Shown one piece after another: positions 31,788 through 42,867 of a DNA stretch of 64,000 nt. Position 1 is the stretch's first letter; each line of letters starts with the position of its first letter. The DNA is taken from assembly GCA_905182175.1 (NCBI GenBank), contig CAJJAT010000001.1, forward strand, positions 124,001 to 188,000, read 5' to 3'. Source of the stretch: Flavobacteriales bacterium UBA1494 (GTDB taxonomy: Bacteria > Bacteroidota > Bacteroidia > Flavobacteriales_E > Vicingaceae). Below the pieces are notes generated by a model. The model did not search any database, had not been told where the DNA came from, and saw only the letters and a list, made by a program, of their open reading frames with translations. The position numbers were made by a program, and so were the translations under genes.

Positions 31788-32825
31788 ATGACACTCTTTC
31801 TAAGACACAGTTCTTACTTTATTCTTTCATCGCTACTACTCGCATCTTGTAATCAGAAAAAAGAAGTTGAAGCAAAAAAAAATGAGCAAACAGTTATTGA
31901 AATGAATGACAGCAGTTCGATTTCCAAAACAGCAGAAGACGCACCCAGACATCAAACAACAAAAACTAGATTAGTTATTCTCGGTACAATTCAAGATGCC
32001 GGCTCTCCTCAAATAACTTGCAAAAAGTCGTGCTGCGAAGGTTTATTCGAGGACCCTGACCAACGCAGGAAAGTAGTTTCGTTGGGTTTAATAGATGCTC
32101 TGAATAACACAACCTATTTATTTGAAGCAACTCCTGACATTGGCAGCCAAGTTAAAAAGCTAACTCAATTAGAGACAAACAGCGAAAGCGAAATGGTAGA
32201 CGGCATTTTTCTAACGCATGCACACATGGGCCATTATACAGGTTTAATGTACTTAGGTAAAGAAGCTATGGATGCCAAGAATACCCCAGTTTACGCCATG
32301 CCTCGCATGAAAAGCTTTTTAGAAAACAATGGCCCTTGGAGTCAATTGTTAGTAAGAGAAAACATTCACATAAATGCGTTGCGGTCAGATTCAAGTGTTC
32401 AACTCTCTAATGGACTAAAAGTAACGCCTTTTTTAGTTCCCCACAGAGATGAATTTTCAGAAACCGTGGGCTACAAAATTGAAGGACCCAATAAAAGCGC
32501 TTTGTTCATACCAGACATCGACAAATGGGAAAAGTGGAGCAAAGACATTGTTACAGAAATAAGAAAAGTTGATTATGCTTTTTTAGATGCAACTTTTTTT
32601 GATGCGAAGGAATTGAATAATCGAGACATTTCACAGATTCCACATCCGTTTATAATAGAGAGTTTAGAAAAGTTCGGGGACCTAAATAAAATTGATAAAC
32701 AGAAGGTTATTTTCATTCATTTTAACCATACCAACCCTGTTATTGACAGAACGAGCAAAGCATACAAATTAACGACACTAAAAGGCTTTAGAATTGCACA
32801 AATAAATGAGCAATTTGAATTGTAA
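31788..32825 (+). CDS. MBL-fold metallo-hydrolase lipoprotein (PqqB-like)
   Basis: 345 residues with a signal peptide ending in LLASC, so a lipoprotein. The metallo-beta-lactamase-fold signature LTHAHMGHYTGL gives the main metal-binding motif (H-x-H-x-x-H), followed by the later histidines in VPHRDEF and FIHFNHTNP. The N-terminal TCKKSCCEGLFEDPDQRR cluster and the overall order resemble PqqB, an MBL-fold protein of pyrroloquinoline quinone synthesis, but PqqB is not a lipoprotein and no other pqq gene is in the window. It is best called a secreted MBL-fold hydrolase of unknown substrate. It follows the broken barrel gene by 18 bases. Confidence 0.83.
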   Translation: MTLFLRHSSYFILSSLLLASCNQKKEVEAKKNEQTVIEMNDSSSISKTAEDAPRHQTTKTRLVILGTIQDAGSPQITCKKSCCEGLFEDPDQRRKVVSLGLIDALNNTTYLFEATPDIGSQVKKLTQLETNSESEMVDGIFLTHAHMGHYTGLMYLGKEAMDAKNTPVYAMPRMKSFLENNGPWSQLLVRENIHINALRSDSSVQLSNGLKVTPFLVPHRDEFSETVGYKIEGPNKSALFIPDIDKWEKWSKDIVTEIRKVDYAFLDATFFDAKELNNRDISQIPHPFIIESLEKFGDLNKIDKQKVIFIHFNHTNPVIDRTSKAYKLTTLKGFRIAQINEQFEL

Positions 32826-33089
32826 TGTGAAACAATTAATAAAAAACATTTTCTTATAAAATTTTAAATTACTCACGATTATGTACTAACGAAAAGAAAC
32901 TATACCCAGATTTGCTATACTTTTTAGAACGAAGATATACTTGAGTTCAACACTCAGTCACTTGTTGACTGTTTTGATTTAACCAATTATTATTGCAAAA
33001 TATTCGTGTTAATTCTGTTAAATATTTCACTATCCTTGCCCTTCACAGTTTTAATTATTCAGTAAAAATCATTTTTTAATTCAATTTAT

Positions 33090-33540
33090 AACAAAGAATC
33101 ACGACCATTTATTAACAATGTTTGGATATACAGCTAGATTGTACTCTGCGATTAGTTCTTGAAGAATAATCCAAACAAATTAAGCACTTTAATAAAATAG
33201 AAAATTTGTGTTTAAAAAATTGAAGTAAAAAATTATGGCAATTTGTTACTACTTAATTATCGAATTACTTAAGCCTGAAATTATGCTATATTATTTTCTA
33301 TAAATATGACGAACATTAACAAAACCATTTGTTAACAACATTCGTACAAATATTTTAAGATACAGCTAGATTATACTCTGTGATTAGTTTTGAAGAATAA
33401 TCCAAACAAATTAACTACTTTACTTAAGTTGAAAATTTATATTTTTAAAATTGAGGCAAAAGAACATAGCAACCGGTTACTACTTGGTTATCAAGTTACC
33501 TAAACATAAAATTATGCTATATTATTTTCTATAAACATGA
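33090..33540 (+). repeat. Tandem duplication of the leader before the SiaB-like gene
   Basis: Two imperfect copies lie head to tail, roughly 33090-33309 and 33310-33540. Shared blocks include ACAGCTAGATT...ACTCTG, GAAGAATAATCCAAACAAAT and ATTATGCTATATTATTTTCT, offset by 231 bases, with a region of indels near the front (offset 220). Copy 2 ends in the ATG of the 33537 gene; copy 1 ends in an equivalent ATG (33306-33308) followed by only eight more codons. The rest of the gap 32826-33536 is AT-rich with nothing else recognisable. Confidence 0.85.
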
Positions 33541-34631
33541 AGGATATTTACAATTCCTTTTCGAAATCTACTGTTAGCATTAGTTATCTAGGAAAGACTG
33601 ATGACGAAATAACAGGACGATTGATTCAATTGGCAGAGTCATATTTACAAAATATGGAAGGCTTAAATTACCTTTCAAGAAGAGTCCCTTTTCTGATTGC
33701 CGAAAGCTTTCAAAATGTTGTCCGCCATGGAAGCCAACCAAATAATCAATTAAATAGAAGTCTTGAAACAGACCTTTTCCAAATCTATATATTACACGAT
33801 AGAGTTATTTTATGCGCTGCAAATCAAATTAAGAATAAAAATGTTGCCGCATTAGATGCTAGAATAAATAACTTGAACTCACTGGATAAAGAAGAGTTAA
33901 AAGAATTATGGAAGCATACAATAACAAAAGATGACTTTTCCGACAAGGGTGGAGCAGGCCTTGGCTTGATTGAAATGGCACGAAAAAGTCGCATGCCAAT
34001 TATAAAAAAGTTTGTAAAACTTAATGAAAAAACATCTCTATTTTTTTTAGGTATAGAAATCTTAAAAAAAGATACTACCCATGAGTCAACCTTTAACCTT
34101 TCTCAAACTGAAAAGCTGTACAATAATTTTGTAAAAGATGGAGTGATTCTCCAATACAATGGACATTTTTCAGAAGAAACAAATGCGCCTCTTATTGAAA
34201 TTATTCAAAATAATCTTATCAGGCAAGGTGCGATGAGCGCCAATGCAACTGAGAATCTATCTGTGATTTCGTGGCTTATGAAAAAGTCATCGAAACATGG
34301 CGTGATTATAAACGAATTGAGAGAAGGTATTTTCAGCATTCGTAAAATTCATGATGAACTGTTCATTTATTGCGGCAATTTTATTAATTACGAAAGCCAT
34401 AGAGAGTTCAAACAACAATTAGAAAGACTTAAATCAATGAGCCTTGAAGCACTGGAGCAAGAACAAAATTTACGAAGAAAAGAAACAGAGTTGTCCGGGA
34501 ATGGCGATGCAGATCTAGGTTTTTTAGGCATCGCGATATCTACCAAAAACACATTCGAATTTTCTTTTAAAAAGATGGCTAACAATCTTTACTTCTACTC
34601 CATTGAAATTAAACTGAAAGACATTCGATAG
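33537..34631 (+). CDS. SiaB family protein kinase-like protein (DUF6272), tandem-domain
   Basis: 364 residues. The first ~185 residues match SiaB-type HATPase-like kinases: an N-box-like AESFQNVVRHG (residues 55-65) and a G-box DKGGAGLGLIEMAR (about 135-148). The second half (about 192-364) repeats the layout (NNFVKDGVILQYNGHF start, GNGDADLGFLGIAIS in place of the G-box, then FSFKKM...FYSIEI) but with altered key residues. SiaB phosphorylates SiaC in a partner switch controlling diguanylate cyclase and stress/biofilm outputs in other bacteria; no SiaC, SiaA or GGDEF gene is in this window. The leader before it is duplicated. Function is inferred from the family. Confidence 0.75.
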   Translation: MKDIYNSFSKSTVSISYLGKTDDEITGRLIQLAESYLQNMEGLNYLSRRVPFLIAESFQNVVRHGSQPNNQLNRSLETDLFQIYILHDRVILCAANQIKNKNVAALDARINNLNSLDKEELKELWKHTITKDDFSDKGGAGLGLIEMARKSRMPIIKKFVKLNEKTSLFFLGIEILKKDTTHESTFNLSQTEKLYNNFVKDGVILQYNGHFSEETNAPLIEIIQNNLIRQGAMSANATENLSVISWLMKKSSKHGVIINELREGIFSIRKIHDELFIYCGNFINYESHREFKQQLERLKSMSLEALEQEQNLRRKETELSGNGDADLGFLGIAISTKNTFEFSFKKMANNLYFYSIEIKLKDIR

Positions 34632-41109: not shown

Positions 41110-42867
41110 ATGATAAAATCGATCACAAAGATGTTGTTCGTGAACCTTAATTTTAGCTTCCTATTTTCTGCTACAGCATAAGAACCAACAAAACCGACCT
41201 ACGAAAACAAAGTACATGAAGAAGAAGGAAAGTATTTTGTACAAAAATCGTTATCTGTTTACCTTAGTTTTTCGACCACTCCGGACGGAAAAGATTACCC
41301 TCTAAAAAGCAAGGTAAATCCTAAGGATGCAAATCCAATGTATTTAGATACAGAAGGCATTAATTACATCCGCAGTAAATGGGCGGTTGATCCTGCTTCA
41401 GGAGAAACAATTACTCCAAAACGGGAAGTGTTGATGGAAATGTATGCAGATGGTCTTGCCCCAAGAACAACGTTAAATTTTTCTGGAACACCTAGATACA
41501 ATGACGGCAGTGTTAGTTTTTTTGGAAAAGGCCTAAATTTCGATTTATCTGCCAAATACGGTGTTTCAGGTGTATCTGAAACACAATTTTCATTAAGTAG
41601 CTCGTATGCAAAGTACTCCACTACTGTAAGCGGCACCAAGGAAGGAGCAAATACCTTATATTACTATTCTGCTGACAAGGTTGGGAATGCTGAAAAAACC
41701 CGATCGAATGCATTTACAGTAGATTTATCTCCACCAAGCTCAGCTCATTCTATCGTTGGTATTTTGCACAACAGCAACATCATTTCACCAAGCACAAAAT
41801 TCAGCTTGAGCACAACAGATAACCTTTCGGGAATCAAAAGTGTTGTTTATTCTTTCGATAGTCAAGGAAACGAAACGTATGTTCCAAACATTAGTGTTAA
41901 TTCATTAGCTGATGGTGACCACACCTTACATTATTATGCTACAGACAACGTTAAGAACGAAGCAACGAAAAAAAGCTTCAGTTTTTACTTAGACAAAATT
42001 GTCCCAGTAGTCTCATCAACGGTGGTTGGAGATCAGCACAAAGGAAACTACATGTTCGTTTCTTCTAGAACCAAAATAAATTTAGCCGTTACAGATAATA
42101 AAGCGGGCGTAAAACAAATTTATCAACGTTTAGATTCAGACGGGCAAACTGACTATTCCTCTAATTTTAGTGTACCAAATAAACTAGGCCTTCATTATAT
42201 AAAATACAGAGCAGTAGATAATGTAGAGAACATGGCAGCAAATAAAACCTTGACAGTTTACATGGATAATAAATCTCCTGAAACTGGAATTATTTACGGT
42301 AGCCCGCAGTTTTTTCATAGAGACACCTTGTTTATTACAAGCCAAACACCTGTTACTTTGCGTTTCCGCGATGTACATTCGGGCATCAAAAGCACAAGCT
42401 ATAGTATCGACGGAGCAAGCAAAACCTTGTATGCTAAATTTACTGTACCAGGTGAAGGAAACCATTCTATTGGATTCAATTCTGTAGACAATGTCAACAA
42501 CAACGAAGAAGAAAAAAGCAGCAAAGTTTTTGTAGACAATACGGCACCGGAAATCTTTATCAACTTTTCTATTGAGCCTATTGGAGTTAAAAATGGAGTT
42601 AAAAATGGAGTTAAAAATGGAGTTAATTTATATCCAAATTATGTAAGAATGTACATTGGCGCAACAGACCAGCATGTAGGTACTGAGAAACTTCTTTACT
42701 CTATTGATGGAGCACCGTTAACTGAATACTCTTCTCCAAGAACCTTAGATATTTCTGAATTAAACCGTTTCAAAAAAATGAAGAAATACAGGGTAAGAAT
42801 CGTTGCAAAAGACAAACTAAACAATGAATCTGAAAAAATTGTTGAATTTTTTGTAGGGAACAAATAA
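41110..42867 (+). pseudogene. OmpL47-type/Ig-like repeat surface protein with stop just after the signal peptide
   Basis: An ATG at 41110 begins MIKSITKMLFVNLNFSFLFSATA, a good signal peptide, then a TAA at 41179-41181. The same frame continues open to 42867: EPTKPTYENKVHEEEGKYFVQKS and then, from 41338 (an ATG), 509 more residues. The body has four to five repeats of the OmpL47-type/Ig-like kind (TKEGANTLYYYSADKVGNAEKT, DGDHTLHYYATDNVKNEAT, GLHYIKYRAVDNVENMA). If translated from an internal ATG the product would lack its export signal, so the gene is probably dead, but the body is undamaged. A 12-base tandem repeat lies inside. The TAA may stand for a CAA (Gln) after ATA. Confidence 0.65.
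42583..42626 (+). repeat. 12-base tandem repeat inside the Ig-like surface gene
   Basis: The unit GGAGTTAAAAAT occurs three full times from 42583 to 42618, followed by a partial unit to 42626. In frame it gives V-K-N-G repeated three times, then V-N. Because the unit is a multiple of three, copy-number changes would keep the frame and only lengthen a loop between strands. Confidence 0.9.

Follow-up and report, generated by a model that had tools for sequence, protein, structure and literature searches.

Short tandem duplications of promoter or 5' regions, formed through microhomology or slippage, occur in bacteria. Our search of the literature for duplications equivalent to the one described below returned no specific matching case. 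In flavobacteria, 5' leader peptides and structured 5' UTRs have been described (PMC9723704), and in Flavobacterium johnsoniae an A at positions -3 and -6 favours the initiation of translation (PMC6847099).

Here, we analysed a 64,000-nucleotide stretch of Flavobacteriales bacterium UBA1494 (contig CAJJAT010000001.1, positions 124,001 to 188,000; hereafter the window) and found by alignment within these 64 kb two imperfect direct copies, head to tail, at 33104-33323 and 33324-33554, directly at the start of a gene of the SiaB kinase family. The features of the locus, in coordinates of the window, are the following:

32955-32971, + strand: terminator-like hairpin with a T-rich tail after it, between the upstream gene and the repeat (one found, 0.1 expected)
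33104-33323, + strand: copy 1 of the tandem unit, leader plus truncated gene start, 220 nt; homology extends to 33330 via the shared ACCATTT
33128-33183, + strand: block A of copy 1, 56 nt with two substitutions and a 1-nt gap
33279-33308, + strand: block B of copy 1, an AT-rich translation-initiation region with A at -3/-6 that ends in ATG; one substitution in 30 nt
33306-33335, + strand: nine-codon mini-ORF, MTNINKTIC followed by TAA, whose nucleotides resemble those of gene codons 1-8 (the real gene begins MKDIYNSFSK)
33324-33330, + strand: junction word ACCATTT, matching ACCATTT at 33104-33110 upstream and TCCTTTT at 33555-33561 inside the gene
33324-33554, + strand: copy 2 of the tandem unit, leader plus first codons of the real gene, 231 nt; homology extends to 33561
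33360-33414, + strand: block A of copy 2, counterpart of that in copy 1
33510-33539, + strand: block B of copy 2, whose last three bases are the ATG of the kinase-family gene
33537-34631, + strand: DUF6272 / SiaB-family protein kinase gene, 364 aa (PF19788, E 1.8e-43; NF038262, E 2.1e-50, above cutoff)

The repeat consists of an ungapped segment of 172 nt with 80% identity (33159-33330 versus 33390-33561, offset 231) and a further 41 nt with 85% identity (33117-33157 versus 33349-33389, offset 232). A gapped alignment starting at ACCATTT (33104/33324) unites both segments with one gap of 12 nt, which is either an insertion in copy 2 or a deletion in copy 1, and one gap of 1 nt. The diagonal of the repeat scores 169, whereas no unrelated diagonal in the 64 kb exceeds 31 and the top diagonals of five Markov-shuffled windows reach 29-30. 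The tandem duplication of the leader that a sequence-only reading of this DNA had proposed is thus real: two head-to-tail copies stand far above the chance maximum of ~30, and the second adjoins the gene. Tandem Repeats Finder did not report a repeat at 33104-33554, because the copies are too diverged. In ~356 kb of sequence sampled, a figure that includes duplicates of this locus, there was no other comparable tandem duplication; a weaker case at another locus (L036; offset 555, score 61) lies within a multi-domain DUF6272 gene. No third, older copy was found upstream, where local alignments of 32826-33100 with both copies scored at the shuffle mean.

The limits of the copies differ from those first read. 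Copy 1 starts at about 33104 and not at 33090, and the second copy does not end exactly at the ATG of the gene: the similarity goes 22 nt past both ATGs, with 15 of these 22 nt identical, such that the repeat unit covers the first ~8 codons of the gene. The equivalent ATG at the end of copy 1 (33306) and the nine-codon frame that it opens were read correctly.

How old is the duplication, and how did it arise? Differences were counted at 37 of the 202 aligned ungapped positions, a Jukes-Cantor distance of 0.21 substitutions per site. This makes the duplication old, and with ~18-20% divergence between them the copies cannot be one segment that was simply assembled twice. At the join, the ends of the unit have the word CC[A/T]TTT in common, which is probably the microhomology of the duplication, and such a short common word suggests one microhomology-driven tandem duplication. 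We propose that a single event of ~220-231 bp would have doubled the promoter/leader region together with the first ~8 codons of the SiaB-family (DUF6272) kinase gene, and that it would have taken place in this lineage, the copies having since diverged by ~20%. The word is short and the unit ends are blurred by divergence, which counts against this explanation. Alternatively, the entire gene could have been doubled along with its leader, the first gene body being deleted afterwards from codon ~8 to just before the second leader. The duplicated unit indeed contains the gene start, and tandem DUF6272 genes, or ones whose domains are doubled, occur in relatives (G059:C19, G041:C119 and G039:C58 have neighbouring matches). 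However, such a history requires two events, a join at a word common to both unit ends is what a single duplication leaves, and no remnant of a gene turned up between the copies, so that we regard the loss of a whole duplicated gene as rather improbable.

Is the leader shared with other genomes or other genes of the family? It has no other copy in its own genome, where matches were short and AT-rich, and it was absent by BLAST from 6 genomes of the genus and 46 of the family, by pattern search with up to 3 mismatches from 100 relatives, by exact pattern from GTDB and viral contigs, and from phage and plasmid records. A dispersed repeat, MITE or REP-like element was rejected, since searches of the genome and of phage and plasmid records turned up no further copies. 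Among 33 loci of DUF6272 relatives, none showed a similar leader or a tandem arrangement in its upstream region, and a leader common to other DUF6272 genes, including the two paralogues in the same genome, was rejected with scores at the null level.

In the closest genome (G004), the upstream and downstream neighbours of the locus show 80% and 88% protein identity, respectively, and lie on separate contigs. The ancestral state is unreadable there because these contigs end in transposase-adapter sequence just at the repeat interval, which hides it. The adapter is of the Nextera type and represents assembly contamination; it was seen at the end of L071 and the start of L072 (G004 C232 and C172) and also at the end of L081. 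In three other members of the genus (G001-G003), the upstream neighbour is followed by different genes.

The kinase-family gene at 33537-34631 scores above the cutoffs of both NF038262 and PF19788 and far below that of NF038264, the equivalog model for the SiaB of the P. aeruginosa type (68 versus 225). By eye, its product contains two DUF6272-like stretches: N-box-like and GGAGLGL motifs persist in the N-terminal one, and the C-terminal one looks degenerate. The genus holds no close orthologue and the genome_contigs search yielded no close homologue; the nearest protein matches in 60 relatives are only ~30% identical, as are the paralogues in the same genome (L077 and L078). We identified no SiaC-like gene adjoining 33537-34631. 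One of the paralogues, with a single DUF6272 domain (L078:2212-3159), is followed 15 bases on by a 128-aa gene that resembles a SiaC partner and is a candidate for this role. Elsewhere in the window, a perfect 12-bp tandem repeat of 3.8 copies (TGGAGTTAAAAA) at 42582-42626, in the ORF 41338-42867, codes for a VKNG repeat and is a possible length-variable site.

Within the duplicated unit the differences are spread unevenly: 2 of 55 aligned positions in block A, 27 of 95 in the middle between the blocks (71.6% identity), 1 of 30 in block B and 7 of 22 past the ATG. In permutation tests, the longest run of identity and the variance among windows each gave p ~0.02, and a change-point test gave p 0.03, values that come from a single pair of sequences in one genome, with the blocks chosen post hoc. 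Such a spread is a weak sign that both copies are under constraint, or that gene conversion has acted on them. Of the earlier claim that the duplicate has been kept for some time, the age agrees with ~0.21 substitutions per site, and retention by selection finds weak support in the clustering. A coding sequence within the repeat was rejected: the differences are even over the three codon positions in every frame, and short frames are not common to both copies.

What could the leader contain that was doubled? The terminator-like hairpin at 32955-32971 lies ~130 bases past the upstream gene of the metallo-beta-lactamase fold (stop at 32825). This site suggests that the kinase gene has its own promoter in the interval, in which case the duplication would probably have doubled promoter sequence. 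Both copies could then hold a regulatory site (block A) and a start region (block B), retained as a functional tandem promoter or operator to raise or tune the expression of the kinase. Two well-kept blocks at matching places in both copies, the clustering of the differences and the probable promoter in the interval are consistent with this. However, scans for the sigma-70 and the Bacteroidota -33/-7 consensus, the latter as quoted in PMC6847099, gave no match at equivalent positions of both copies, and the number of sigma-70 or Bacteroidota TTTG/TAnnTTTG sites in the repeat was no higher than in shuffles; as consensus scans only, these are weak evidence. The clustering, in turn, is weak, post hoc and from one genome. 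A promoter motif common to both copies was rejected, its matches being within chance number and not at equivalent positions, and we consider a functional tandem promoter unlikely. As for the doubled promoter or operator first suggested, the doubling of the leader holds, a promoter-like match at equivalent positions was not found, and the sequence is compatible both with a doubled function and with its absence.

A structured leader, also suggested at first, fared worse. If a riboswitch-like element or small RNA had been doubled in tandem, a common fold would be expected in both copies. Block A of copy 1 can indeed form a stem of 8-9 bp (GUUUGGAU / AUCCAAAC; z -2.1), but copy 2 does not preserve this stem (z +0.4), the z values of other segments are close to 0, and no fold better than shuffles was found in both copies. 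Rfam covariance models gave no match at the gathering score and, under lax thresholds, one chance match, and there were no homologues for covariation. A riboswitch or other known RNA was rejected on these grounds, and we consider a doubled structured RNA so improbable as to be nearly negligible.

Since codons 1 to ~8 of the gene fall within the similarity, the most plausible reading of the mini-ORF at 33306-33335 is a copy of the gene's 5' end that was duplicated and truncated. Could it nevertheless be translated? Ribosomes starting at 33306 would make MTNINKTIC, a leader or decoy peptide that would affect the transcription or translation of the downstream gene. Its initiation context is kept: the 27 nt ahead of the ATG region are identical, and block B of both copies has the A at -3 and -6 that favours initiation in F. 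johnsoniae (PMC6847099). Against such a role, the peptide is just what would result from truncating a duplicated gene start, the divergence of its codons (7 of 22 nt) exceeds that of the leader, and the mini-ORF lies ~200 nt away from the gene start. Moreover, from 33335 to the gene start there is neither an attenuator hairpin nor a run of regulatory codons, and copy 2 folds no more stably than its shuffles do. We therefore consider regulation through the mini-ORF very improbable. The frame that had been read as a possible decoy peptide is present, and its sequence is compatible both with a decoy role and with the absence of one; annotation of the nine-codon ORF as a leader peptide needs evidence, whether or not copy 1 is functional.

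In summary, we consider it fairly probable that the locus goes back to a lineage-specific duplication of promoter/leader and gene start, in which the gene uses copy 2 and copy 1 would be a relic or auxiliary region. The better preservation of the two blocks relative to the middle counts against this reading. The alignments and searches show the duplication, its extent, its divergence and its absence from the other sequences searched; from these we infer a microhomology origin, near-neutral retention and a role of copy 2 as the working leader. Copy 2 joins the gene directly and would supply the working translation start. Copy 1, now ~230 bp further upstream, would be left as a relic or auxiliary start region whose ATG opens only the truncated nine-codon frame, such that this spare start region may yield a nine-residue peptide at most. 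The likely outcome would be little or no effect, or some extra upstream transcription into the gene. There is also a slim chance that the doubled start region has come into use, with a regulator bound at block A of both copies and ribosomes captured by block B of copy 1 as a decoy, which would set the level of the kinase; such a device would have evolved from a chance duplication that included the start codons. A functional copy 1 would illustrate clearly how, in a phylum that lacks Shine-Dalgarno signals, a tandem duplication reaching into the first codons of a gene gives rise to an upstream mini-ORF and to another start region; a copy 1 without function would be an ordinary relic. The event is modest and mostly ordinary unless the spare copy proves to be used.

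How does the locus compare with the described systems? The kinase-family gene fits both models of the SiaB / DUF6272 family (NF038262 and PF19788) above cutoff; unlike SiaB, it encodes 364 aa with two DUF6272-like stretches and stands outside any SiaB-SiaC pair, and its kinase activity is predicted. As among the flavobacterial 5' leader peptides and structured 5' UTRs (PMC9723704), a short ORF lies upstream of a gene in Bacteroidota; in contrast to these, the locus carries no attenuator structure, run of amino-acid codons or Rfam motif. In arrangement, the locus resembles the short tandem duplications of promoter or 5' regions, with head-to-tail copies upstream that adjoin the gene and join at a short common word. 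It differs from them in that its copies are ~20% diverged, and thus old, and in that the unit reaches ~8 codons into the gene, so that a truncated start remains upstream.
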